Origin: Mesorhizobium sp. CAU 1732
GTDB taxonomy: Bacteria; Pseudomonadota; Alphaproteobacteria; Rhizobiales; Rhizobiaceae
Reading direction: 5' to 3'
DNA: 64,000 nt
Assembly (NCBI RefSeq): GCF_039888675.1
Contig: NZ_JBDQQR010000004.1
Coordinates: 62,001 to 126,000, forward strand
The translations under genes were made by a program, and so were the position numbers. Below the pieces are notes generated by a model, which was given only the letters and a program-made list of their open reading frames with translations, made no database searches and had not been told where the DNA came from. This document shows positions 43,012 to 62,179 of the stretch, one piece after another (position 1 is the first letter of the stretch; every line of letters starts with the position of its first letter).

Positions 43012-43128
43012 TGGTCTGCCCCCTGAAAAGCGGTCCTCCCTGAAGTAGGCTATTGAGCCGTAGAGAGGATTTTGGAATGCCAGAAGAAGCACAAACCCGA
43101 GGAGATCGGCGCGAAACTACGCCAGGTC
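43012..43128 (+). mobile_element. Left-end fragment of the IS3-family element found at 56922
   Basis: About 115 bp matching the beginning of the complete element at 56922-58183 with scattered differences: the terminal TGGTCTGCCCCCTGAAAA, the GTCCTCCCTGAAGT stretch and the first codons of its orfA (ATGCC-CAGAAGAAGCAC, here with a small deletion). Similarity stops near 43128. Same orientation as the full copy. Confidence 0.85.
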
Positions 43129-43207
43129 GACCCGCTTCCTGTCGAGGAACACCAGAAGCAGCCCGAGTTCGGTTCCCTCAATCCGAAATCGAAACGATTT
43201 CGATCAA

Positions 43208-43580
43208 TCAGCGCCCGTACCACATGCGCCGGAGCAGTCCGTCCCGGCGAATGAAATGGTGATAGAGAGCCGCGCCAACATGGGCAAGCAGCAGCGCGAC
43301 CAGGAGGCCGCGCCGAGACCATGCGAATACGCGGCGGGTATTGAAGGAAGTTCGGCAGCTCTGTGTCCGCGCCGCTGAAGATGATCGGTCCCGCGCCACT
43401 GAGAACGATCATGCCGATGCCGCTGGCGACCATTCCAAGGATGACGATGTAGAGGGCGATGTGGACACCGCGCGCCAGCCGCTCTTGCCATGGCGGCGAT
43501 CCTTTCACCGGCTCGGGCTTTCGGTCGAAGAAGCGCCGCGCAACCTTGCCCGCGCCGCCGATCACGAAGATATTGCTCAT
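43208..43580 (-). pseudogene. Cytochrome b561-like fragment, frameshifted
   Basis: From ATG 43580 the minus strand reads RLARGVHIALYIVILGMVAS and GIGMIVLSGAGPIIFSGA, the third helix of a cytochrome b561-type protein. Around 43320-43340 the frame changes and continues as RRGLLVALLLAHVGAALYHH and RRDGLLRRMWYGR, the fourth helix with the heme histidines HxxxALYHH. The first two helices are missing. Not functional as it stands. Confidence 0.7.
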
Positions 43581-43623
43581 TGACCGGTCTTCTTTTCCAG
43601 AAAGGCGGCCAGAACATTCTGGA

Positions 43624-43815
43624 CCTGCCACTGGCGCAACGATCGCCATCCATGAAGATGGCCGGGTGGTCGTGCAGGTGCCGCGCACGGAGATGGGGCA
43701 GGGCATCCATACCGGCCTTGCCATGGTGGTGGCCGAGGAACTGGACATCCCCTTTGACGAACGCATCAGCGTGGAGTTTCCCACCGAACCGCTGCCGGCC
43801 TATTCCAGCTTGTCC
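43624..43815 (+). pseudogene. Molybdopterin-binding aldehyde/xanthine oxidase-type subunit fragment
   Basis: Plus-strand frame IAIHEDGRVVVQVPRTEMGQG followed by IHTGLAMVVAEELDIPFDER. The EMGQGxxTGLxMxVAEEL pattern is diagnostic of the large subunit of xanthine-dehydrogenase-like enzymes (IorB/CoxL group). Only about 64 codons remain, with no start or end of the gene. Confidence 0.65.
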
Positions 43816-43873
43816 AGATCCCCCCGGAAACACTGCCAGAACCATAGCATATTTCAGGTCCAAACAGGATTTT

Positions 43874-44020
43874 TTACAGGTCGTGGATTGTCGAATGATC
43901 AACGCTGATCCCGCGCTCGGCCATCATTTCCTTCAAGTCCCGCGGGCTCAGATTATGGGCCAGATACCAGCGCAGGCTCAGCAGGATGACGGAGTGGCCG
44001 AAATGGCGGACTTTGAACAT
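43874..44020 (-). pseudogene. IS6-family transposase N-terminal fragment
   Basis: Minus-strand frame FGHSVILLSLRWYLAHNLSP then RDLKEMMAERGISVDHSTIH, the highly conserved N-terminal block of IS6/IS26-family transposases. It ends at TAA 43874-43876 shortly afterwards, so only about 48 codons survive and the DDE domain is gone. Confidence 0.8.
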
Positions 44021-44513: not shown

Positions 44514-45278
44514 ATGGATACGGTATATTTAGATAGAATACACAACCAAACCGGCGTCAGAACCCTCAGTACGGTTCTCAAGACGATGGCCGTGCTCGAT
44601 GTCCTGGCCGACAGCCCGCGCGGCATGAAGCTGCCGGAGGTGGCCGCCGCCATGCAGTTGTCGAGGCCCACCGCCTACCAGCGCCTGCTGACGCTGATAC
44701 AGGCCGGCTGGGTCGAGCAGGACAAGGACATGCGCTATCGCCTGTCGATGCACTCGTGCCGCCTTGCCGCCGCAGCCCTCGAACATGCCGACCTCGGCGC
44801 ACGCGCCAATGCTGTTCTCGAAGCGCTGGTTCAGAAGGTTCAGGAGACCGCCTCGCTTGCGGTGCTGGACCGTGGCCTGCCCTGTATCGTGGCGCGCGTC
44901 GAATCCGAAAGCCTGCTGCGCGCCGAGCAGAAGATCGGCACCACCATGTCGCTGGAAGGTTCGGCCTCCGGGCGCGTGTTGACGGCGTTTGCCGATGGCA
45001 TGACGCTGGCGCGGCTGCGCGACAGCGGCGAGCCTCTCGCCGCGGAAGAGACCCTCGCGGCCACCCGCGCCGATGGCTACGCGGTCTCCAGCGGCTACAC
45101 CCACACCGGCGTCATCGCCATCGCCGCGCCAATCTTCGACCTCAACGAGCGCTGCGTCGCGACGCTTTCGCTGGTCATGCCGCAGACCCGTTACCAGCTA
45201 GAAACCTTCAGGGCTCCGCTCATCGAGGCCGCAGAGGCGATCACTCGCATCCAACAGGGAAAACATCCGCATCCATGA
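44514..45278 (+). CDS. IclR-family transcriptional regulator
   Basis: A 254-aa regulator. N-terminal winged helix at residues about 20-75 (TMAVLDVLADSPRGMKLPEV ... AMQLSRPTAYQRLLTLIQAG), followed by an IclR effector domain with GRVLTAFADG and SGYTHTGVIAIAAPIFD. ATG 44514 has AAAGGAA about 11 bp upstream; the frame runs open to 44277 but the added part is unlike the family. Its stop overlaps the start of the next gene (ATGA), so the regulator is the first gene of the operon it likely controls. Confidence 0.88.
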   Translation: MDTVYLDRIHNQTGVRTLSTVLKTMAVLDVLADSPRGMKLPEVAAAMQLSRPTAYQRLLTLIQAGWVEQDKDMRYRLSMHSCRLAAAALEHADLGARANAVLEALVQKVQETASLAVLDRGLPCIVARVESESLLRAEQKIGTTMSLEGSASGRVLTAFADGMTLARLRDSGEPLAAEETLAATRADGYAVSSGYTHTGVIAIAAPIFDLNERCVATLSLVMPQTRYQLETFRAPLIEAAEAITRIQQGKHPHP

Positions 45279-46999
45279 CCGCGACAGCAGAATTTCCGGT
45301 TTCGGGCAGCGCAGTTCCCGCGCCACGCCCCGGCTCGATCCTGATGACGCCCGCGCGCCTCGCGGCTATCCAGCCGAGCCGCGTCAGCGGCGCGCGTGCC
45401 TTCATGAACAAGATGGTTCGCGAGCGCTGGGATATTTCCGTCCAGCGTTTCGACATTGATAAGAGCGCCGCCGGCACCTTCGTCTATTCCATCAAGTCGC
45501 CTGACTGCGAATTCTCCTTCATCGGCTTTTCCTTCCCGCCCAGCCGCACCGCGCGCACCGGCCGCATCATCGGCCGCGCGTGGGACATGATGGGCACGCT
45601 CAACGAAGGCCCCGCGACGGAAGCCGACATCGAGTCCGCCCGCGTCGAACTGCCCAAGCTCTACAGCGGCCGCGCCACGCCCAATGCGCTGATCTGGTGC
45701 CGCTCCAACCGCTCGATGCGCGTGTTCGACCAGACGCTTGCAGCCCTCGCCGACGGCAACCAGCCAGAAATCTCCGCTTTGTCGGAAGTTTGCTACCTCA
45801 TGCGCAACACCGGGCTCGATGGTAACGGCACGTTCGGCACGCGTTCCTTCCCGTCCCTCGGCGCCGATCATCCGCTTGGCGGCGTGTTGCAGGCGCAGCT
45901 TTTGACCGCCTATCTGATGCGCGAATATTCGTGCGATCTGGTCGAGCACCTTGCCAGTCTCAAATCCGACAAGGCGGTGAAGATCGACCCGACCACGCGC
46001 CGTTTCCTCGGTGTCGGCAATGGCTCGGCACTTGGCCTGATCTTCTTCATCCAGAAGCATCCGCGCCTCATCAATGCGCTGCTCACCGCGCGTGAGAACG
46101 CCATCGCCAAGGCGCGCGCCCTGGCGGTCGAAAAAGGCGACGACCGAGTCGCACAGCTCCTCGAGCTTGTGCAACGCGCTATCGTTTTCCGCCAGCAGGA
46201 CAAGATGGTCTACGAGGCTTTCACCTCGAGCCAGCAGATTGCAGCAGACCTCCAACAGGTCGCGCAAGCCCTCGATGCGTTGCGCCAGACGGGCCTCGTC
46301 AACGGAGAGCGCGCCAGCTATCCGCTTGACGCACTGGCCCAGCACTTCGACGACACCTTAAGTCCGGAAGCCGGCGAGATCTTCCTGTCGCTGCTGGTCG
46401 AACTGGTGCCTGACATGGTCGATGACGCGATCCGGGCCATCGACGCGCCCGACGAGTTCACCGTTCAGGCGTCCGAGAAAGCCTGCGACCTGCTCACCCT
46501 CGTGCGTCGTGACTATGGCTGGGCGCTCGAGGCCGACATGGCTCATCCCCACGCCTATCGTTATGTCTGGTACAAGTCGGAGACCGCCGAGGAACCCCGC
46601 CGCGGGGCGCGCGACGAGGTGCCGGATGCGCTCGATCTCGGGCTCGACATCTGCGGTGGCGTCCAAAAACTCGCCGCGGATCTCGAAGCCTCGCCTGCCG
46701 ATCTCACGCTCGCGCGCTTCCTCATGAAGCACCCGCAGCATCGCCATCTGGTTGCCCGTATCCAGAGCTTGCGCGGCCTCACCTATCACACGCCCCACGC
46801 TAACATTAACGCAGAGGCGTTCGTGCCCATCGACCTCGTGCGCCTGATGAATGTCGGCATCCATGGCATCGACAAGACGCGCGACTTCCTCAACCGCAAT
46901 CTGCGTGGCGTGCTCTATCACGGCGCGCCGACGCCGCAGGACATCCGCGCCGGCTACACCGGCACCTGGTTCTACCCGGCCGAACCAGCCACCGCATGA
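45275..46999 (+). CDS. Conserved protein of unknown function (574 aa)
   Basis: I do not recognise a family. From ATG 45275 (ATGA overlap with the IclR gene) the protein has 574 aa, no signal peptide and no clear membrane helix. Stretches that look conserved are GSILMTPARLAAIQPSRVSGAR, RTGRIIGRAWDMMGTLNEGP, LIWCRSNRSMRVFDQTLAAL, LMRNTGLDGNGTFGTRSF, FLGVGNGSALGLIFF and GLTYHTPHANINAEAF. Codon use matches its neighbours. The overlap with a dipeptidase, transporter and RidA operon makes an enzymatic role in breakdown of the imported compound likely (inference). Confidence 0.85.
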   Translation: MTATAEFPVSGSAVPAPRPGSILMTPARLAAIQPSRVSGARAFMNKMVRERWDISVQRFDIDKSAAGTFVYSIKSPDCEFSFIGFSFPPSRTARTGRIIGRAWDMMGTLNEGPATEADIESARVELPKLYSGRATPNALIWCRSNRSMRVFDQTLAALADGNQPEISALSEVCYLMRNTGLDGNGTFGTRSFPSLGADHPLGGVLQAQLLTAYLMREYSCDLVEHLASLKSDKAVKIDPTTRRFLGVGNGSALGLIFFIQKHPRLINALLTARENAIAKARALAVEKGDDRVAQLLELVQRAIVFRQQDKMVYEAFTSSQQIAADLQQVAQALDALRQTGLVNGERASYPLDALAQHFDDTLSPEAGEIFLSLLVELVPDMVDDAIRAIDAPDEFTVQASEKACDLLTLVRRDYGWALEADMAHPHAYRYVWYKSETAEEPRRGARDEVPDALDLGLDICGGVQKLAADLEASPADLTLARFLMKHPQHRHLVARIQSLRGLTYHTPHANINAEAFVPIDLVRLMNVGIHGIDKTRDFLNRNLRGVLYHGAPTPQDIRAGYTGTWFYPAEPATA

Positions 47000-47730
47000 C
47001 GGACGACAAGACCATGACGACGCTTAGAATCATGCCGCGCGAGATGCGGCTCATGTCCGAACGCATCCTGTCGCTTACGGCGTTGCCTAAGGGCTTCTTC
47101 ACGGCGGTGATCGACCATGTCATGTATTCGCAGAAGCTCGCGTTCGGCGGCTTCGCGATGCTCGAAACCCGCTTCGACGTGCTTGCCAAGGCAGACCCGG
47201 CGAAGATTGCCATCGCCAGCGAAACCGCCGGAACGCTCGAACTCGACGCCGCAGGCGAACATGCCTGGTTCGTGGTGCCGACGCTGCTCGACCTTGCCGG
47301 CGAGTTCGTCGCCCGCTTCGGCGAAGCCCGCATCACCGTTGCAAACGCCCTCGATCCGGCAGAGCTGAAGATCGCGCAAGCGCTGGCCGGCCGCACCGGC
47401 CTTGCCCTCACCGTGCGCGAAGGCGACGCGCCCGTTTTCACCGCGACCGCACAGCCGCTCACCGGCATCGTGGCGCAGGATGATCCGACGCTGTGGGCGC
47501 TGCTCTGCGACGGCGTTCAGATCGACGCCGAACTCTGGTGGCGTACCTATCACCACGCCAAGAAGGCGCTGGCCGCCGACACGGTCGTGTCGCGCCGCCA
47601 TGCTGGTCCGATGATCGTCAACGAGGACGGCACCGTCATCGGCCGCAAGGACAATGACGACGAGACCGACATCTCGTTCCTCGCCGCGCCCGGCGCACAG
47701 AACACTCAGGGAGAAAACGCGAAGCCATGA
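46996..47730 (+). CDS. Conserved protein of unknown function (244 aa)
   Basis: Unrecognised 244-aa protein that overlaps both neighbours by 4 bp (ATGA at each end), so it is made in step with the 574-aa protein and the dipeptidase. No signal peptide or membrane segment. The N-terminus MPREMRLMSERILSLTALPK and the long mixed alpha/beta stretch that follows do not give a fold by eye. The C-terminal 30 residues are acidic and look flexible. Probably a partner subunit of the 574-aa protein (inference from coupling only). Confidence 0.82.
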   Translation: MTDDKTMTTLRIMPREMRLMSERILSLTALPKGFFTAVIDHVMYSQKLAFGGFAMLETRFDVLAKADPAKIAIASETAGTLELDAAGEHAWFVVPTLLDLAGEFVARFGEARITVANALDPAELKIAQALAGRTGLALTVREGDAPVFTATAQPLTGIVAQDDPTLWALLCDGVQIDAELWWRTYHHAKKALAADTVVSRRHAGPMIVNEDGTVIGRKDNDDETDISFLAAPGAQNTQGENAKP

Positions 47731-48701
47731 TCATCGACGGTTTACAGTGTGGTCATTTCGACCGAGAGGCGTTCCAATCGCTCAAGAAGGCTGGCGTGGG
47801 CGGCGTGGTCGTCACCTGCGGCTTCTGGGAGGGCGCGCTTGAATCGCTGGATTCGCTCGGCAAGTGGCGCGACCTCGTGCGCGAGAACGCCGACGTCGCC
47901 GAGATCGGCACCACCGCCAAGGACATCGCCCGCATCGGTGCGGAGGGCAAGGTCGCCGTCGTCCTCGGCTTCCAGAACGCGAACCTGTTCGAAGGCCGCA
48001 TCCGTCTGGTCGAGATGTTCGCCGAGCTCGGCGTCCGCGTCGTCCAACTCACCTACAACAACCAGAACGAGCTTGGCGGTTCCTGCTACGAGGACGAGGA
48101 TTCGGGCCTCGCCCGCTACGGCAAGCAGGTCATCCTTGAGATGAACCGCGCCGGCATCCTCGTCGATTGCAGCCATGTCGGCGATCGCACGACGCTCGAT
48201 GCCATCAAGGTTTCGGAAAAGCCGATCGCCGTTACCCACGCCAATGCGCGCTCGCTGTTCAACCACAAGCGCAACAAGTCCGACGCCGTCATCAAGGCTC
48301 TGGGCGAGACCGGCGGCGTCATCGGCTGCGCGGCCTACCGCAACATCACCGGCGACGAGTACTGCAAGACCATCGAGGCGTGGTGCACCATGGTCGCCCG
48401 CACCGTGGACATCGCCGGCATCGATACCGTCGCCATCGGCACCGACCGCAGCCACAACTTCACCGCGCCCGACTATGCGTGGATGCGTCAGGGCCGCTGG
48501 ACCCGCGGCGTCGAATACGGCGCAAGCGCTGCCGGCAAGCCGCTTAAGGCGCCGCCGCCGGACTGGTTCCAGACCGTCGAGGACATGAACGTGATCCCCA
48601 GAGGGCTGCGTGCCGTCGGCTTCTCGGAAGAGGAAGTCGACAAGATCACTCACAAGAACTGGCTGCGTCTCTACGAAGCCACGTTCGGCACCTCATCTTA
48701 A
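47727..48701 (+). CDS. Divergent peptidase family M19 (membrane dipeptidase-like) protein
   Basis: A 324-aa amidohydrolase-fold protein of the renal-dipeptidase group. Kept metal-site residues: H150 in LVDCSHVGD, H171 in VTHANARS and D240 in IGTDRSHNF. The usual N-terminal HxD pair is not present (IDGLQCGHFD), and the bridging glutamate appears replaced by Q83 in GFQNANL. It belongs to a divergent 'DGLQ/GFQN' subgroup that may not be a true zinc dipeptidase. No lipid anchor or signal, so it acts in the cytosol. Overlaps the preceding gene by 4 bp. Confidence 0.85.
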   Translation: MIIDGLQCGHFDREAFQSLKKAGVGGVVVTCGFWEGALESLDSLGKWRDLVRENADVAEIGTTAKDIARIGAEGKVAVVLGFQNANLFEGRIRLVEMFAELGVRVVQLTYNNQNELGGSCYEDEDSGLARYGKQVILEMNRAGILVDCSHVGDRTTLDAIKVSEKPIAVTHANARSLFNHKRNKSDAVIKALGETGGVIGCAAYRNITGDEYCKTIEAWCTMVARTVDIAGIDTVAIGTDRSHNFTAPDYAWMRQGRWTRGVEYGASAAGKPLKAPPPDWFQTVEDMNVIPRGLRAVGFSEEEVDKITHKNWLRLYEATFGTSS

Positions 48702-48718
48702 AAGAGGAGAACTGGGAA

Positions 48719-49771
48719 ATGACGAAATTCACGATCAAGTCGCCATGCTTCATGGCACCGAACCGCCGCACCTTTCTGAAGGGCGTCGGTATCGCTGCGG
48801 CTTCCACGCTGGCAGCGCCCTACGTCGCTCGCGCACAGGACAATGTGATCTACATCAACACCTGGGGTGGCCCCTGGGAAGAAGCGGCACGCGCCAACCT
48901 GTTCGACCCGTTCACCGCCGCAACCGGCGTCGAGATCCGCACCGTTTCGCCGGTGTCGTTCGCAAAGCTCGCGCAGCAGGTCAACACCGGCGTCTACGAA
49001 TTCGACATCACGACGCTCGGCGGGGCAGAACTCGTCCGCGCCAACTCGGCCGGCATCATCGAGGAGCTTGAAGCACCCTACGCGGGGGGCCTTTACCAGA
49101 ACGGCATCGGCTCGCACGCCTTCGCTACCGTCATGGCATGGCGCACTGACAAGTTCAGCGAACCCCCGCAGAGCTGGGCCGATTTCTGGGATGTGGAGCG
49201 CTTCCCCGGCCCGCGTTCCCTCCAACGCTATCCCGCCCGCGTCCTGCCGCTGGCGCTGCTCGCCGATGGCGTTGCGGTCGAAAACCTCTACCCACTCGAC
49301 CTCGACCGCGCGTTTGCCAAGCTCGACGAGATCAAGGACCACATCCGCGTCTGGTGGACGGCCGGCGCGCAGTCGACACAGATCCTGCGTGACGGCGAAG
49401 TCGACATGATCGGCATCTGGCATGGCCGCTTCTTCGAAGCCGAAGACGCCGACGCGCCGGTCGCCATGACCTGGAACCAGGGCGAAATCGACAGCGCCTA
49501 CTGGGTCGTCGCCAAGGACTCGCCGAACATCGAGCGCGCGAAGGACTTCATCGCCTTCGCAACCAGCCCCGAGCCGCTGGCAAACTTCGTCAAAGCTGCC
49601 GATTATGGCCCGCTCAACCCGGCTGCCGGCGCGTTCATTTCGGAAGAGGAAGGCAAGCGCATGCCGACCTCGGAAGAAAACAGCAAGCTGGTCTTCACGC
49701 AGGACATCGCCAATCTCGGCGGCGACATCGAAGAGATCGCACAGCGCTTCGAGGAGTGGGTCGCAAGCTGA
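48719..49771 (+). CDS. Pot-type (spermidine/putrescine class) periplasmic binding protein
   Basis: A 350-aa solute-binding protein with a twin-arginine-type leader (NRRTFLKGVGIAAASTLAAP). The mature part starts VIYINTWGGPWEEAARANLF, the PotD/AfuA-group opening, and has DITTLGGAELVRANSAGIIEE and AYWVVAKDSPNIERAKDFI. GAGGAG lies 9 bp before the ATG. It follows the dipeptidase-like gene by 17 bp, so the importer is part of the same operon. Ligand may be an amine, opine or amide rather than a polyamine. Confidence 0.87.
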   Translation: MTKFTIKSPCFMAPNRRTFLKGVGIAAASTLAAPYVARAQDNVIYINTWGGPWEEAARANLFDPFTAATGVEIRTVSPVSFAKLAQQVNTGVYEFDITTLGGAELVRANSAGIIEELEAPYAGGLYQNGIGSHAFATVMAWRTDKFSEPPQSWADFWDVERFPGPRSLQRYPARVLPLALLADGVAVENLYPLDLDRAFAKLDEIKDHIRVWWTAGAQSTQILRDGEVDMIGIWHGRFFEAEDADAPVAMTWNQGEIDSAYWVVAKDSPNIERAKDFIAFATSPEPLANFVKAADYGPLNPAAGAFISEEEGKRMPTSEENSKLVFTQDIANLGGDIEEIAQRFEEWVAS

Positions 49772-49801
49772 TCCCTCCAGCCTGAAAGCCTCCCAAGGCT
49801 G

Positions 49802-49843
49802 GCCGCCGCGCCCTTCCCTTCTTTCCAGGTTGGGCGCGGCGGC
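49802..49843 (+). promoter_or_regulatory. Strong stem-loop between the binding protein and permease genes
   Basis: Perfect 12-bp stem GCCGCCGCGCCC/GGGCGCGGCGGC around an 18-nt loop, about 30 bp after the binding protein stop. There is no T-run after it. Such hairpins commonly protect the binding-protein mRNA and lower downstream expression, giving excess binding protein over permease. Confidence 0.65.
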
Positions 49844-49875
49844 TCACATTGTGAACCTGAAACCGGGAAACGGCG

Positions 49876-50724
49876 ATGACGACCGGCCTCTCAAATCTCA
49901 CGCAGAAGACGAACCTGTGGCCGTGGCTTCTGCTCACGCCGCTGGCGCTGTTCCTCACCGTCTTCTTCGTCGTGCCTTTGCTCGACGTGGCGATCATGAG
50001 CTTCACCCACCCGCGCCCGACGCTCGCCAATTACGAGCGTGCGCTGACCGGTGCGCTCTACCAGCGCGTCTTCATCAACACGTTCCTGACGGCAGGCTTC
50101 GTCACTTTATGCTGTCTGCTTGTCGGTTACCCGCTCGCCTATCTGATGTCGATCGGCAGCCAGCGCACCGCGATGCTGATCCTGCTTCTCGTGACGATGA
50201 GCTTCTGGACCAGCTTCCTCGTGCGCACCTATGCGTGGATGGTGCTGCTGGGTAACAATGGCCCGCTGATCTGGCTGATCCATACGATGGGCTTCGAGCA
50301 GACTCCGCAGCTTCTGTTCACGCGATTTTCCTCGACGCTTGCGATGGTCCACATCCTCGCGCCCTACATGATCATGAACATCTACTCGGTCATGCGGAAG
50401 ATCGACCCGACGTTGATCCGCTCGGCGGAAAGTCTCGGCGCGCGCGGCTCGTCCTTGTTCCGGCACGTCTATCTGCCGCTGACCGCGCCCGGCATCGCCA
50501 ATGGCTGCGTGCTCGTCTTCGTCATCTGCCTCGGCTTCTACGTCACGCCGGTTCTGCTCGGCAGCCCGCGCGAACAGATGATCACCGGCCTCATCGGCAC
50601 GCAGGTGGACGAGTTCCTCGCCTTCGGCATGGGCTCCGCGCTGGCAATGGTGCTTCTGTTCGTCACCCTCGTGATCCTCGCGATCTACCACCGCCGCTTC
50701 GGTCTCGATAAGCTCTGGGGTTAG
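49876..50724 (+). CDS. Pot-type ABC transporter permease (B subunit)
   Basis: A 282-aa permease with six membrane helices. It opens WPWLLLTPLALFLTVFFVVP and has the EAA-type loop (AESLGARGSSLFRHVYLPLT). PotB/YdcU-like. The other permease follows after 2 bp. Confidence 0.9.
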   Translation: MTTGLSNLTQKTNLWPWLLLTPLALFLTVFFVVPLLDVAIMSFTHPRPTLANYERALTGALYQRVFINTFLTAGFVTLCCLLVGYPLAYLMSIGSQRTAMLILLLVTMSFWTSFLVRTYAWMVLLGNNGPLIWLIHTMGFEQTPQLLFTRFSSTLAMVHILAPYMIMNIYSVMRKIDPTLIRSAESLGARGSSLFRHVYLPLTAPGIANGCVLVFVICLGFYVTPVLLGSPREQMITGLIGTQVDEFLAFGMGSALAMVLLFVTLVILAIYHRRFGLDKLWG

Positions 50725-50726
50725 CC

Positions 50727-51518
50727 ATGAACACTTTCATGAAATGGCTGGGCATCGCGGTCGTAATCTTCATCGCCGCGCCGCTTGTCATCGTCGTGCC
50801 GATGTCGTTCTCCACGGCACGCTCGTTGCAGTTCCCGCCACCCGGTTACTGGTTCGGCTACTACGAAGCCTACTTCTCCGATCCGCGCTGGCTGGTCCCG
50901 ACCTGGAACAGCATCATCATCGCAACGGCAACGATGGTTCTGACCATGCTGCTGGTGGTCCCTGCGACCTTCGCGCTGGTGCGTCACCGCTTTCGTGGCC
51001 GCTCCATTGCCGACATCATGATGCTGATGCCGCTTGCAGTGCCGTCCATTGTCATGGCGATCGGCTACTATTCCTATTTCGGCCAGCTCGGCATCGTGCA
51101 CACTCATCTCGGCGTCATCCTCGCCCACACCAGCCTTGCGGTTCCGATCGCCTTTCTGGTTCTGTCGGCAAACCTGAAGGGCTTCGACCGCACGCTGGAG
51201 CGCGCGGCCCTCAGCCTAGGCGCCAGCCCGACGCAGACCTTCATCCACGTCACGCTGCCGATCCTGCGCCCTGGCCTGATCATCAGTGCCCTATTTGCCT
51301 TCGTGCAGTCGTTCGATGAAACGGTCGTGGCGATCTTCATCTCCGGGCGCGGTGCCGAGACGCTGCCGCGCAAGATGTTCGACAGCATCCGGCAGGAAGC
51401 CGATCCGGTCATCGCGGTCATCTCGACGCTGCTGTTCGTCGCGGTCTTCATCGGCCTGACCGCCCCGCTGGCACTCGCCGCCATCCGCAAACGCCGGGAC
51501 CGTGCGTGCCCCGCCTGA
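50727..51518 (+). CDS. Pot-type ABC transporter permease (C subunit)
   Basis: A 263-aa permease partner: VFIAAPLVIVVPMSFSTARS at the start, MLMPLAVPSIVMAIGYYSYF in the core and EAA-type loop ALSLGASPTQTFIHVTLPIL. PotC/YdcV-like. It ends 23 bp before the ATPase start. Confidence 0.9.
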   Translation: MNTFMKWLGIAVVIFIAAPLVIVVPMSFSTARSLQFPPPGYWFGYYEAYFSDPRWLVPTWNSIIIATATMVLTMLLVVPATFALVRHRFRGRSIADIMMLMPLAVPSIVMAIGYYSYFGQLGIVHTHLGVILAHTSLAVPIAFLVLSANLKGFDRTLERAALSLGASPTQTFIHVTLPILRPGLIISALFAFVQSFDETVVAIFISGRGAETLPRKMFDSIRQEADPVIAVISTLLFVAVFIGLTAPLALAAIRKRRDRACPA

Positions 51519-51541
51519 AACCGCCATTCACGGGAAAACCC

Positions 51542-52606
51542 ATGAGCTACCTCGTACTCAACGGAATAACCAAGACCTACGGCCAGTTCTTCGCGCTGGA
51601 GGAAGTGAACCTCGGTATCGGCAAGGGCGAGTTCGTCACCTTCCTCGGCCCCTCCGGATCGGGCAAGACCACGACGCTGATGATCATCGCCGGCTTCGAG
51701 AAGGCCACCGCCGGCACGGTCGACATCGAAGGCCGCTCGTTGCATGGCCTCGCGCCGCACCAGCGCAACATCGGCATCGTCTTCCAGAATTACGGCCTGT
51801 TCCCGCACAAGACGGCGGCGGAAAACGTCTGGTTCCCGCTCCAGATGCGCGGCACCAAGCGCGGACCTGGCCTGAAGAAGGGCGAGGAGATGCTGGAACT
51901 GGTCGGCCTCAAGGACTTCGGCCATCGCTATCCGAAGGAGCTTTCGGGCGGTCAGCAGCAGCGGGTGGCGCTGGCGCGCGCGCTCGTCTTCGAGCCGTCT
52001 CTTCTGCTTCTCGACGAACCGCTCGGCGCGCTCGACAAGAACCTGCGCGAGCAGATGCAGATCGAGATCAAGCGCATCCAGCGCGCGCTGGGTGTGACGA
52101 CGATCTTCGTCACCCACGACCAGACCGAGGCGATGTCGATGTCCGACCGCATCGTGGTGTTCGAGAAGGGCCGCATCCAGCAGGTCGCGACCCCGCTCGA
52201 CATCTACCACAAGCCCGAGACCCGCTTCGTTGCTGGCTTCATCGGCGAGAGCAATCTCATCGACGCCGCCGTCACCGACCCCGCCGCCCGCAAGGCGAGC
52301 AGCGAGCACCTCGGTGAGGTCGAATACGCACAGTCGGAGCACGCGGTCGAAAAGGGCAAGCCAGTCACACTGATGATCCGCCCCGAGCACATCCGCCTGT
52401 CACGCAATCCGATCGAAGGCCGCCACAATGCGCGCATGAAGGTCGAGACCATTGTCAACTACGGCGACAACGCCCTCGTCATCGGCCGTGTCGGCACCCA
52501 GCCCATGCGCGTCCGTGTGCTCGGCGCCGATGTCGTCATCATCAAGGAAGCCGAAGATTGCTGCATCAGCTGGAAGCCTGAATCGATGTATCAGATAGCG
52601 AAGTGA
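51542..52606 (+). CDS. Pot-type ABC transporter ATP-binding protein (A subunit)
   Basis: A 354-aa ATPase of the PotA/FbpC group: Walker A GPSGSGKTT, LSGGQQQRVALARALV, Walker B LLLDEPLGALD, switch histidine in FVTHDQTEAMS, and a C-terminal TOBE domain (VTLMIRPEHIRLS). The start at 51542 lies in the context AAACCCATGAGC; the open frame from 51506 is longer by 12 codons. The stop overlaps a possible GTG start of the next frame. Confidence 0.92.
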   Translation: MSYLVLNGITKTYGQFFALEEVNLGIGKGEFVTFLGPSGSGKTTTLMIIAGFEKATAGTVDIEGRSLHGLAPHQRNIGIVFQNYGLFPHKTAAENVWFPLQMRGTKRGPGLKKGEEMLELVGLKDFGHRYPKELSGGQQQRVALARALVFEPSLLLLDEPLGALDKNLREQMQIEIKRIQRALGVTTIFVTHDQTEAMSMSDRIVVFEKGRIQQVATPLDIYHKPETRFVAGFIGESNLIDAAVTDPAARKASSEHLGEVEYAQSEHAVEKGKPVTLMIRPEHIRLSRNPIEGRHNARMKVETIVNYGDNALVIGRVGTQPMRVRVLGADVVIIKEAEDCCISWKPESMYQIAK

Positions 52607-52650
52607 CAGCGCGCGCGAACACCCCCGTCACCGATCGAGGAGAAATAACC

Positions 52651-53022
52651 ATGAACACCGTCACCGACCTGATCGAGCGCTTCGGCATCGGCAAGCGCGG
52701 CAGTTCTGCCGTCACCCACAACGGCACTGGCTATTTTGCCGTCACGCCACAGGCTCCGTATGACGGCTCGCTGAGTGCTGCCGATCAGGCGCGTCAGCTT
52801 CTCGACAAGGCTGACCTGCGCCTCGCCGAGATCGGCAGCGGCAAGGACAGGCTGCTGTTCGTCGCGATCATCCTGCCCGATATGGCGAACTACGGCGAGA
52901 TGAACGCCGTGTGGGATGAGTGGGTCGCCGGCATCGCCCCACCCGCGCGCGCGTGCTTCAGCGGCGCGCTCGCCAGCCCCTACATGAAGGTCGAGATGAT
53001 CATGGTCTGCGCGACGAACTGA
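52651..53022 (+). CDS. RidA/YjgF-family protein
   Basis: A 123-aa protein of the Rid superfamily. From ATG 52651, with a strong AGGAG site before it, it has the family layout ending with PPARACFSGALASPYMKVEM and IMVCAT, where the arginine corresponds to the residue that binds the substrate carboxylate in RidA-type deaminases. Rid proteins hydrolyse reactive enamine/imine intermediates to ketones and ammonia. Its place at the end of this operon suggests that the pathway creates an imine (inference). A GTG at 52603 could start a longer form. Confidence 0.85.
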   Translation: MNTVTDLIERFGIGKRGSSAVTHNGTGYFAVTPQAPYDGSLSAADQARQLLDKADLRLAEIGSGKDRLLFVAIILPDMANYGEMNAVWDEWVAGIAPPARACFSGALASPYMKVEMIMVCATN

Positions 53023-53411: not shown

Positions 53412-53590
53412 CTAGTCGGTGACGCCGATCACTGCTTTCACTTCTAGAAATTCCTCCAGGCCGTAGATTCCGAACTCGCTGCCATTGCCGGACTGCTTGT
53501 AACCACCAAAGGGCAGGTCGGGTGTCGCCGCCGTGCTGTTGCTGGCGTCAACATTGCTGACGCCGGATGCAAAACTGTGGACCCTGGACA
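53412..53590 (-). pseudogene. Aldehyde dehydrogenase C-terminal fragment
   Basis: Minus-strand frame ending [20 protein letters not shown] and [15 protein letters not shown], the standard C-terminus of aldehyde dehydrogenases ([28 protein letters not shown]). About 55 codons are recognisable; the frame is broken upstream and the catalytic cysteine and glutamate are missing. Between 53023 and 53411 I see no gene. Confidence 0.75.
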
Positions 53591-54268
53591 AGCGTCTCTC
53601 CGTTCTGGCGGGAGAGTTCGATGTCGATTTCCGGTGGGCAGCGAGTTCGAAGCTGCTTGCTTCATGAATGACGACCACGACGGCCGGAGATCGGCGATGG
53701 CCAGAGGCGGCCATTTACGGGGGCGCAGGTAAGCGTGATTGCGCACGCCGGCCATCAACCTCCTGCCGGCAAGCGACGTCGGATCCGACTTTTCGCCGCG
53801 CGTTCGATCCAGGCCGCGTGGGCTGTGGGACGAGGTGATGGTCTCGGATCTCAAGTACTTCGACGGGTCCACGTGCGTTAGCGATGTCGGCATAATCTTT
53901 CCGTCGACCGAGTGCGGATCATGTCGCAACTAAGCCGGTGGACTTCGCAAAGGTCATGACGGGTTGGCAGCGCTGGTGAAGAATGAACCGCGCAAGGATC
54001 CATTCACCGGACGGACTTCGTCGTTGAAGCTGATTTACTGAGAGGGCAGGGGCATGGTGATGGCCTACAAGTGGCTTGAAGAACACACCTTCGCGGGGCC
54101 CGGCATTAAAGGACGGCTTGATAATACTGGGCCATGCTGAGTCCGAAGCGCTGTCTGCAGACCTCGACTGGCCGCGCGTCCGTGCTGTTAAAACGAGAGC
54201 CCCGGAGGTTATCGAGTTGCGGCGCCGATCACTGCATGACGACGGGGCCTTGTTTGGTGGGATGAACG
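53591..54268. other. Non-coding or decayed stretch before vapBC
   Basis: Open frames exist on both strands (for example minus 53594-53929 and plus 54058-54312) but none has a convincing start, codon pattern or family match. It probably holds more of the lost aldehyde dehydrogenase locus and junction DNA. Confidence 0.4.
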
Positions 54269-54670
54269 TCACACCAGCCAGTTCTCCACGTCTAATGTGT
54301 CGATGCGGTTGAATTCTCCAACATTGGCGGTCACCAGAGTTGTGCTAAGCACGCACGCATGCGCGGCGATCAATAGATCGTTGTGGCCGATAGGTTTCCC
54401 CATTCTTTCGAGCTCGGCACGGATAGCACCATACTTTATGTCGGCCGCAGCTTCGAGCGGAAGCACCGGAATGACTGCAAGCACTTCTTCTACGCGCTCC
54501 TGAAGCTTGGCAGAGCCTTTCTTGGCACAACCATATCGCAGTTCGGACGCTACGATGATGCTGGTGCAGACGTTTTCATCGCCAACTATTTGCAGTCGTT
54601 GCATCGCTTGGCCTGCAGGATTGCGCACCATATCGCTGATAATGTTCGTGTCGAGCAGATAACGCTTCAA
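54269..54670 (-). CDS. vapC: VapC-type PIN-domain toxin
   Basis: A 133-aa PIN-domain ribonuclease. Acidic residues of the Mg2+ site are D7 (YLLDTNI), E43 (ASELRYG) and D98 (GHNDLLIAAHA); the fourth position reads TANVGEF. Family members cleave initiator tRNA or other RNA. It overlaps the antitoxin stop by 4 bp. Likely neutralised by the protein encoded just upstream. Confidence 0.9.
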   Translation of the reverse strand: MKRYLLDTNIISDMVRNPAGQAMQRLQIVGDENVCTSIIVASELRYGCAKKGSAKLQERVEEVLAVIPVLPLEAAADIKYGAIRAELERMGKPIGHNDLLIAAHACVLSTTLVTANVGEFNRIDTLDVENWLV

Positions 54671-54921
54671 AAGATCTCCTCCGGCTCGGCCGGCTTGTCC
54701 TCGATCTCCAGAAAGTTCTCATCGAGCGGGCTCCACTTGGCAAGCAATTCCAGCAGCCCGGTACTCTGGGGGACCGGTTCGATAATGAGCTTGTCGCCCT
54801 CTCGACTGATCAACGCTCGCTCGCCTGGAAGTTCGAACTCGACCGGGATGCGGACGGCTTGGCTTCGGTTGTTACGAAAGAGGCGAACTTCCTTGGTAGT
54901 TGGTTGCTGTGGCTGGGCCAT
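54667..54921 (-). CDS. vapB: VapB-type antitoxin (SpoVT/AbrB-like)
   Basis: An 84-aa antitoxin with the AbrB-like swapped-hairpin DNA-binding part (KEVRLFRNNRSQAVRIPVEF, LISREGDKLIIEPVP) and an acidic C-terminal tail (EIEDKPAEPEEIF) that would block the toxin. Close to the VapB of enteric and rhizobial VapBC pairs. The direct repeats 20 bp upstream are likely its own operator. Confidence 0.88.
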   Translation of the reverse strand: MAQPQQPTTKEVRLFRNNRSQAVRIPVEFELPGERALISREGDKLIIEPVPQSTGLLELLAKWSPLDENFLEIEDKPAEPEEIF

Positions 54922-61862: not shown

Positions 61863-62179
61863 TCTCAGCTGCAACACGAGCGCGTCATAGGTCGGCGTCA
61901 GCGCCTCATCGATCGCAGCGTCTCTGTCCGGATGATCCAGCGTCGTCGTCGTCGTCCTTATGCTCGCCTCAGAACCAAGCAGTTGGCCAACCGCGAAAAG
62001 GCACGAAGCGTCCCTTCGTCATATCGCGGAGCAAATCCAACATCGTCCCTTTACTCTGACCTACCACTAGCGAACAAAAACGCAACTTATAAGGTCGTCT
62101 TCATCAAGCACCTGTTCTGCGACGATGTATGGCGGCCATCATACCAGCACTTCGCGGCAGCATCCTCTTGCGAACGATT

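Follow-up and report, generated by a model that had tools for sequence, protein, structure and literature searches.

What is taken up and degraded by an operon in which one protein belongs to no recognised family, its partner is a shortened relative of a known family and a third protein has an altered metal site? This question is raised by nine genes at 44514-53022 on the forward strand of a 64,000-nucleotide stretch of Mesorhizobium sp. CAU 1732 (positions 62,001 to 126,000 of NZ_JBDQQR010000004.1; hereafter the window, which is part of contig C4 of 403,268 bases). According to the open reading frame (ORF) list, all nine genes are open and form an intact operon, coding for an IclR-family regulator, a protein of 574 amino acids (P574), a protein of 244 amino acids (P244), an M19-like protein, a substrate-binding protein (SBP), two permeases, an ATPase and RidA. 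Pfam and NCBIfam assigned IclR, M19, SBP_bac_8, BPD_transp_1 (two), ABC_tran/TOBE_2 and Ribonuc_L-PSP within the operon, which bears out the nine same-strand genes described in an earlier account made from the letters alone (the sequence-only reading). The gene content, its conservation, the remote homologies, the lost metal ligands and the gene linkage in relatives were established directly, and the window operon is the soil and plant-bacterial branch of a shared core consisting of P574, P244 and the M19-like protein. We tentatively favour, while granting it less than an even chance, an IclR-controlled uptake and catabolic operon for a homarine-like N-heterocycle (a pyridinium or cyclic-iminium betaine), a small nitrogen-containing carboxylate whose ring would be opened by P574-P244.

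In order to see how far the gene set is conserved, one genome per species was scanned for relatives, which yielded 95 loci with a P574 relative; the best 80 of the 95 were kept. Genes in these loci were called with a simple codon model, by which some genes were missed or misplaced, and were counted with profiles made from those same loci at thresholds set by us. Profile matches to P574, P244 and the M19-like protein were encoded in all 80 relatives, so the gene set, whose recurrence elsewhere the sequence-only reading had proposed to check, does recur. In 78 of the 80 (the exceptions are L045 and L049) P244 and M19 lie on the strand of P574 and at most 4.5 kb downstream, an operon arrangement far beyond chance, and the claimed coupling of the three genes, which overlap by 4 bp in the window, stands. 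IclR was found in 78 of these relatives and the SBP in 74; for each of the two permeases and for the ATPase the count is 72. The relatives of the window branch fall into two clades: clade A has 44 loci, of which 40 span 14 kb or more, and clade B (48-57% identical) has 36, of which 33 reach that length. Judged by record title, the bearers are mostly Hyphomicrobiales, Rhodobacterales, kin of Roseomonas and Azospirillum, Burkholderiales and Pseudomonas; 168 records of the plasmid collection carry a P574 relative. The clade B operon on pSymB of S. meliloti 1021 reads IclR, P574, P244, M19, SBP, permease, permease, ATPase, aminotransferase, aldehyde dehydrogenase (ALDH), RidA, RidA, and this type of gene order is present in the annotation of another S. 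meliloti strain. In strain 1021 the P574 match spans 397135-398790 of NC_003078. For S. meliloti gene tags the literature searched gave one sentence on a transport gene, which may or may not belong to this operon. Four loci (L067, L072, L076 and L079) make up a small outlier group with an M19 protein only 39-40% identical. In the last three of them TctC-type binding proteins replace the Pot importer, hinting at a further substrate, and this cluster also has a Fer2/FAD/NAD reductase.

P574 (45275-46999), the proposed ring-opening or first-step enzyme, had no match above the cut-off in Pfam or NCBIfam. Its profile gave a single hit of E 0.61 against the PDB sequences, and its predicted model gave no usable match in the PDB or viral fold searches. 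The readable names among 120 listed relatives were 'hypothetical' or 'uncharacterized', plus one technical tag. The P574 family is uncharacterised, and no known family or fold was found for it. The idea that it is a detached Ldh_2 domain was ruled out by profile comparison (probability 0.2). In 109 P574 proteins from both branches (the marine sister branch is described below) 63 positions show at least 97% identity, thus the basic chemistry is probably common to both.

The case of P244 (46996-47730; the start may be 47014, and the collection copy P0121 has 238 amino acids) is different, and the claim that both proteins lack a family holds for P574, which remained an orphan in all these searches, but not for P244, which was placed near Ldh_2. 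The window P244 itself had no Pfam or NCBIfam match above the cut-off, and the best Ldh_2 (PF02615) score among the tested P244 homologues was 29.2 bits versus a cut-off of 38.8. P244 has the Ldh_2 family fold, the likeness covering the fold and the N-terminal half; it is gapped at the GHG stretch of the family, which presumably holds the catalytic His, its alignment stops at column 208 of 386 in the Ldh_2 alignment, and it is about 90 residues short of the 333-position profile. P244 is a shortened ('decayed') relative of the Ldh_2 dehydrogenases. It is probably also related to DUF3726: HHalign against proteins of the DUF3726 branch gave E 1.3e-4 with a probability of 54, although PF12525 (DUF3726) itself is not matched by the window P244; P244 and the DUF3726 gene of the sister branch occupy the same operon position, and one DUF3726-branch protein matches both DUF3726 and Ldh_2 in Pfam. 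No paper naming DUF3726 was found in the literature searched. The UniRef name 'Aminomethyltransferase' on the P244 relative P0173 found no support.

The M19-like protein (47727-48701) matches Peptidase_M19 with 247.9 bits versus a cut-off of 26. It has DGLQC in place of DGHND and Q83 in place of the bridging Glu, while H150, H171, R182 and D240 are retained; the canonical motif and the Glu were present in all 14 canonical M19 proteins of the same alignment. If the HxD of DGHND and the bridging Glu are metal ligands, as we take them to be, three of the five ligands of the true M19 dipeptidases are gone. Calling the protein a divergent M19 member was therefore right as to the domain and too mild as to the metal site. 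Since Gln stands at the Glu position also in 12 of the 13 other short M19 proteins of the alignment, the loss of the Glu marks a whole M19 subgroup; the closest PDB entry, 2i5g, also reads GFQ at that site. The M19-like protein is probably no ordinary dipeptidase, and we ceased to favour a canonical dipeptidase function because the three canonical metal ligands are absent.

Profiles were run against 398 genomes of the phylum, with a capped number of candidates scored in each; at least 29 had a P574 relative, and in 27 of these, at 31 loci, the relative was of a distant form which makes up one clade (support 1.0) and is 27.7-31.1% identical to the window protein. A class-wide search in 385 genomes, capped likewise, gave a P574 match in at least 53, our own genome included. 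At the 31 sister loci, where genes were called and counted by the same means as in the 80, a DUF3726/P244-like gene stands beside P574 in every case (at a lenient score limit), M19 in 28, ALDH and a BCCT carrier in 16 each, and Ldh_2 and a co-directional RidA2 in 8 each; Pfam was run on samples of these loci only, in which DUF3726 was confirmed three times out of three, BCCT three times and Ldh_2 twice. The make-up of the marine sister operon is LysR/ALDH/M19/BCCT/P574/DUF3726/Ldh or RidA, and its ALDH comes closest to alpha-ketoglutarate-semialdehyde/2,5-dioxovalerate dehydrogenases without reaching the curated cut-offs. M19, P574 and DUF3726 adjoin one another in three genomes of 1.2-1.4 Mb, whose G+C content was 28-36% over the part read. 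No window-type aminotransferase or thiamine pyrophosphate (TPP) enzyme was matched at the 31 loci, a single weak TPP hit excepted; among eight further sister loci an aminotransferase of the clade B type lies beside two, and Pot-like permeases lie near four (L227, L228, L229 and L231).

Homarine is N-methylpicolinate, an algal metabolite. A homarine operon, homABCDER, was reportedly described by Ferrer-Gonzalez and co-workers in Nat Microbiol in 2026, with N-methylglutamate and glutamate as products and with Rhodobacterales, SAR11 and SAR116 as bearers. No paper naming homABCDER was found in the literature searched. On a plasmid of Phaeobacter gallaeciensis (L190) genes for sarcosine oxidase beta, delta, alpha and gamma are followed, on the opposite strand, by a helix-turn-helix (HTH) and a LysR regulator gene and then by the core operon in the order ALDH, membrane dipeptidase, BCCT, hypothetical (P574), DUF3726, Ldh, so that about 2 kb with two regulator genes separate the operon from the four sarcosine-oxidase-type genes. 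We read the latter as mgdABCD. One article states that Mgd takes part in homarine catabolism and that tmaR often adjoins mgd (PMC13390433). The sister branch is probably the homarine operon reported in 2026, considering its five structural genes and LysR, the betaine-type carrier, the semialdehyde-type ALDH, the mgd-like neighbours (in one record) and the small low-GC genomes; in addition, Ldh could reduce an N-methyl imine to N-methylglutamate. Thus the system put forward by the sequence-only reading as the best candidate for an undescribed catabolic one is probably not wholly so. On the homarine reading, RidA in the place of Ldh would set free the amine and a 2-oxo acid. SoxD (PF04267) was found in 21 of the 29 genomes with P574 relatives; all eight Ldh_2-bearing sister loci are in SoxD-positive genomes, whereas seven of the eight co-directional RidA2 loci are in SoxD-negative ones. 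Near three sister loci (L169, L178 and L185) proteins of 816-837 amino acids similar to FAD/aminomethyltransferase demethylases were seen, by Pfam in L178 only and by similarity in the others, in line with an N-methylated substrate there.

In the window branch the core is accompanied by other genes. Of the 40 clade A loci that span 14 kb or more, 30 have a TPP enzyme, 27 an XRE-cupin regulator, 19 a class III aminotransferase and 9 an ALDH; of the 33 such loci in clade B, 13 have the aminotransferase, 12 an ALDH and 3 the TPP enzyme. The aminotransferase of the clade A locus L005 exceeds the NCBIfam cut-off for gamma-aminobutyric acid (GABA) transaminase, and the nearest structures of the clade B type are of the 'aspartate aminotransferase family', then plant GABA transaminase. 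The TPP enzyme of L005 exceeds the cut-off of PRK07586, 'acetolactate synthase large subunit'; among solved structures, the copy in our own genome comes closest to benzoylformate decarboxylases, and hence the enzyme was read as a 2-oxo acid decarboxylase. In our own genome the XRE-cupin, aminotransferase, ALDH and TPP genes stand in a row on contig C1 (L092, 4212-9471), the aminotransferase being 79% and the TPP enzyme 66% identical to those of L005, and the ALDH being nearest to succinate-semialdehyde dehydrogenase (SSADH), below its cut-off. We infer that this cassette belongs to the pathway of the window operon. The region C1:2807000-2824500 (L093) encodes another TPP enzyme of this family (59%), followed by a long open gene which by eye resembles a molybdopterin oxidoreductase, amid genes which by eye are CoA-transferase-like. 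Directly downstream of RidA in the window, at 53415-53714 on the reverse strand, what is left of an aldehyde dehydrogenase is a C-terminal piece that covers positions 417-461 of Pfam Aldedh, near the spot where several relatives have TPP and aminotransferase genes. A histidine-derived substrate was considered for the Hut genes near L050, L051, L053 and L063 and dropped, as an imidazolonepropionase cluster was present in only those 4 of the 80 loci.

The remaining genes of the operon are those of uptake, Rid and control. The predicted periplasmic SBP (48719-49771; SBP_bac_8, 135 bits; Tat-type signal with a weak TAT_signal match below the cut-off) would be of the Pot/GABA/mannopine class. Its closest PDB entry is 4i1d, then 4eq7/4euo, the entry names including a GABA sensor and mannopine/agropine binders; 4eq7/4euo we take to be the GABA-binding class. 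It is followed by a PotB-like permease of an ATP-binding cassette (ABC) importer (49876-50724; BPD_transp_1, PotB 153 bits, below the cut-off of 348), a PotC-like permease (50727-51518; BPD_transp_1, PotC 119.9 bits, below 326) and a PotA/PhnT2-like ATPase (51506-52606; ABC_tran and TOBE_2, TIGR03265 359 bits, below 457.7). The Rid-family protein (52603-53022; Ribonuc_L-PSP 54.5 bits versus a cut-off of 27.3) is closest to PDB 3kjj, 3k12 and 9bk1 and has the C-terminal stretch PPARACF...KVEMI, presumably of catalytic meaning in the family; it is proposed as an enamine/imine hydrolase. The imine or enamine step suggested for it before is plausible, and among the loci that span 14 kb or more Rid genes recur in 30 of the 40 in clade A, but in only 10 of the 33 in clade B. 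The IclR-family regulator (44514-45278; HTH_IclR and IclR_C), which likely controls the operon, stayed under the cut-off for all ten NCBIfam families listed.

In the pathway that we favour, the Pot-type ABC importer would bring an N-heterocyclic betaine into the cell, and P574, probably complexed with P244, would activate and open the ring, which is the chemically hard first step. The M19-like protein would cleave a C-N bond of the opened product hydrolytically, without a classical two-zinc site, and RidA would convert the resulting enamine or imine to a 2-oxo acid and an amine. A GABA transaminase, a semialdehyde dehydrogenase and a benzoylformate-decarboxylase-like TPP enzyme, encoded on C1 here and beside the operon in many relatives, could then lead to succinate. 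The kept core block, the sister branch with DUF3726, M19, ALDH and BCCT (in one plasmid near mgd-like genes) and the near-invariant P574 positions speak for this reading, in which we infer the P574-P244 complex, the substrate class and the order and chemistry of every step. We consider it rather unlikely that P574 and P244 are a new two-subunit enzyme of unseen fold which opens pyridinium-like rings although no oxygenase or flavin module can be recognised in it, and directs a soil or plant compound other than homarine into the GABA/succinate-semialdehyde route.

Several points weigh against this ring-opening pathway. In P574 no cofactor motif could be recognised. The homarine assignment of the sister branch rests on synteny and on what is reported of the homarine operon, SoxD is also a marker of ordinary sarcosine oxidase, and the Rid/SoxD contrast is confounded, the eight SoxD-negative genomes being from just two families. 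Moreover, SoxD-positive genomes hold 15 sister loci that lack both Ldh and a co-directional RidA2, and three others (L167, L173 and L177) in which a RidA-type gene runs on the opposite strand. In only 2 of the 19 SoxD-positive sister genomes, G144 (at about 10 kb) and G075 (at about 18 kb), do SoxD and P574 share a contig at a distance within 20 kb. The core block recurs on a Tritonibacter plasmid with no oxidase genes within 10 kb. In Phaeobacter a second ALDH, the alpha subunit of a ring-hydroxylating dioxygenase and a PDR/VanB reductase are encoded a few kb downstream of the sister operon (L190, 18294-22980), the last two 6-9 kb away, therefore an oxygenase of ordinary type could be involved in that organism. 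LysR, BCCT, ALDH and Ldh are missing from the window operon, and an identity of 30% would permit a different substrate. Finally, among the loci that span 14 kb or more no Rid gene was seen in 23 of the 33 in clade B and 10 of the 40 in clade A, and the nearness of the SBP to GABA and mannopine binders would fit an acyclic substrate too.

Such a substrate is the subject of the main rival explanation, in which an acyclic amide or conjugate of GABA or of a polyamine would be imported, the M19-like protein would cleave the amide, GABA transaminase and SSADH would finish the route and P574-P244 would remove the acyl part. The SBP relatives, the SSADH-type ALDH, the class III aminotransferases of both clades with the L005 type over the GABA transaminase cut-off and the clade B type near the plant enzyme, and a histone-deacetylase-fold amidohydrolase in five loci all agree with this, but it leaves BCCT and Ldh_2 beside the same core in the marine branch unexplained, as well as the need for a new type of 574-residue protein, and the M19 metal site is non-canonical; we regard it as somewhat unlikely. 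A further reading is that soil bacteria have a plain homarine operon here, in which an ABC importer replaces BCCT; the common core genes, the conserved residues and the Pot-like permeases near four of the eight further sister loci would suit this. However, Ldh and the alpha-ketoglutarate-semialdehyde-type ALDH are absent from the operon, the regulator class differs, and the relatives have the GABA transaminase, SSADH-type and TPP set instead, which makes this unlikely. Very improbable is an opine or dehydropeptide route, where RidA would clear an imino acid arising from oxidation or dehydropeptidase action: RidA is in the operon and the SBP relatives include mannopine/agropine binders, but no opine dehydrogenase or oxidase was recognised among the annotated recurring neighbour families, and M19 dehydropeptidase activity would be expected to need the absent ligands.

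With respect to the layout, four of the eight junctions are 4-bp overlaps by the listed ORF starts (IclR/P574, P574/P244, P244/M19 and ATPase/RidA), and of the other four, one overlaps by 13 bp and three leave 17, 104 and 2 bp between the genes. With inner Met codons as starts the ATPase would begin at 51542 and RidA at 52651, in which case the 13-bp overlap and the ATPase/RidA overlap would vanish. Overlaps of 4 bp or less, previously assigned to most of the genes, thus apply to about half of the junctions, with some starts uncertain. A promoter scan gave 3 sites versus 1.3 expected, a terminator scan 8 versus 6.2 expected, and one imperfect inverted repeat lies within the start of the IclR gene. 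Upstream of the operon, at 43053-43905, there are remnants of a molybdopterin cofactor-binding domain (forward strand) and a weak cytochrome b561-like piece (reverse strand). At 54272-54921 on the reverse strand a PIN-domain protein and an antitoxin-sized gene (MazE-like match below the cut-off) are likely a VapBC-type pair.

A three-protein core of unclear chemistry is common to soil, plant-associated and marine bacteria, and its sister form occurs even in 1.2-Mb genomes. If the homarine link is true, the window branch would point to a second, land-side substrate class, and a new ring-opening chemistry could be tested in S. meliloti 1021, a laboratory strain that is easy to work with and has a clade B operon on pSymB.

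Among known systems, the M19 family (renal dipeptidase) shares with the window protein the whole domain, two His, the Arg and the Asp, and differs at DGHND and the bridging Glu. The type 2 malate/lactate dehydrogenases and imine reductases of PF02615 are like P244 in the fold and the N-terminal half, P244 being shorter and gapped at GHG. In trigonelline degradation the two-component TgnAB opens the ring of a pyridinium carboxylate and the SSADH-type TgnD follows. Ring opening and then semialdehyde oxidation may be likened to the proposed window pathway by analogy only, and no TgnAB-type, luciferase-like monooxygenase was recognised among the annotated neighbour genes. Compared with the probable homarine operon, the window has IclR and a Pot ABC importer instead, lacks LysR, BCCT, ALDH and Ldh, and its P574 is 28-31% identical, but the adjacent P574, DUF3726-like and M19-like core is shared by the two, as is RidA with 8 of the 31 marine loci.

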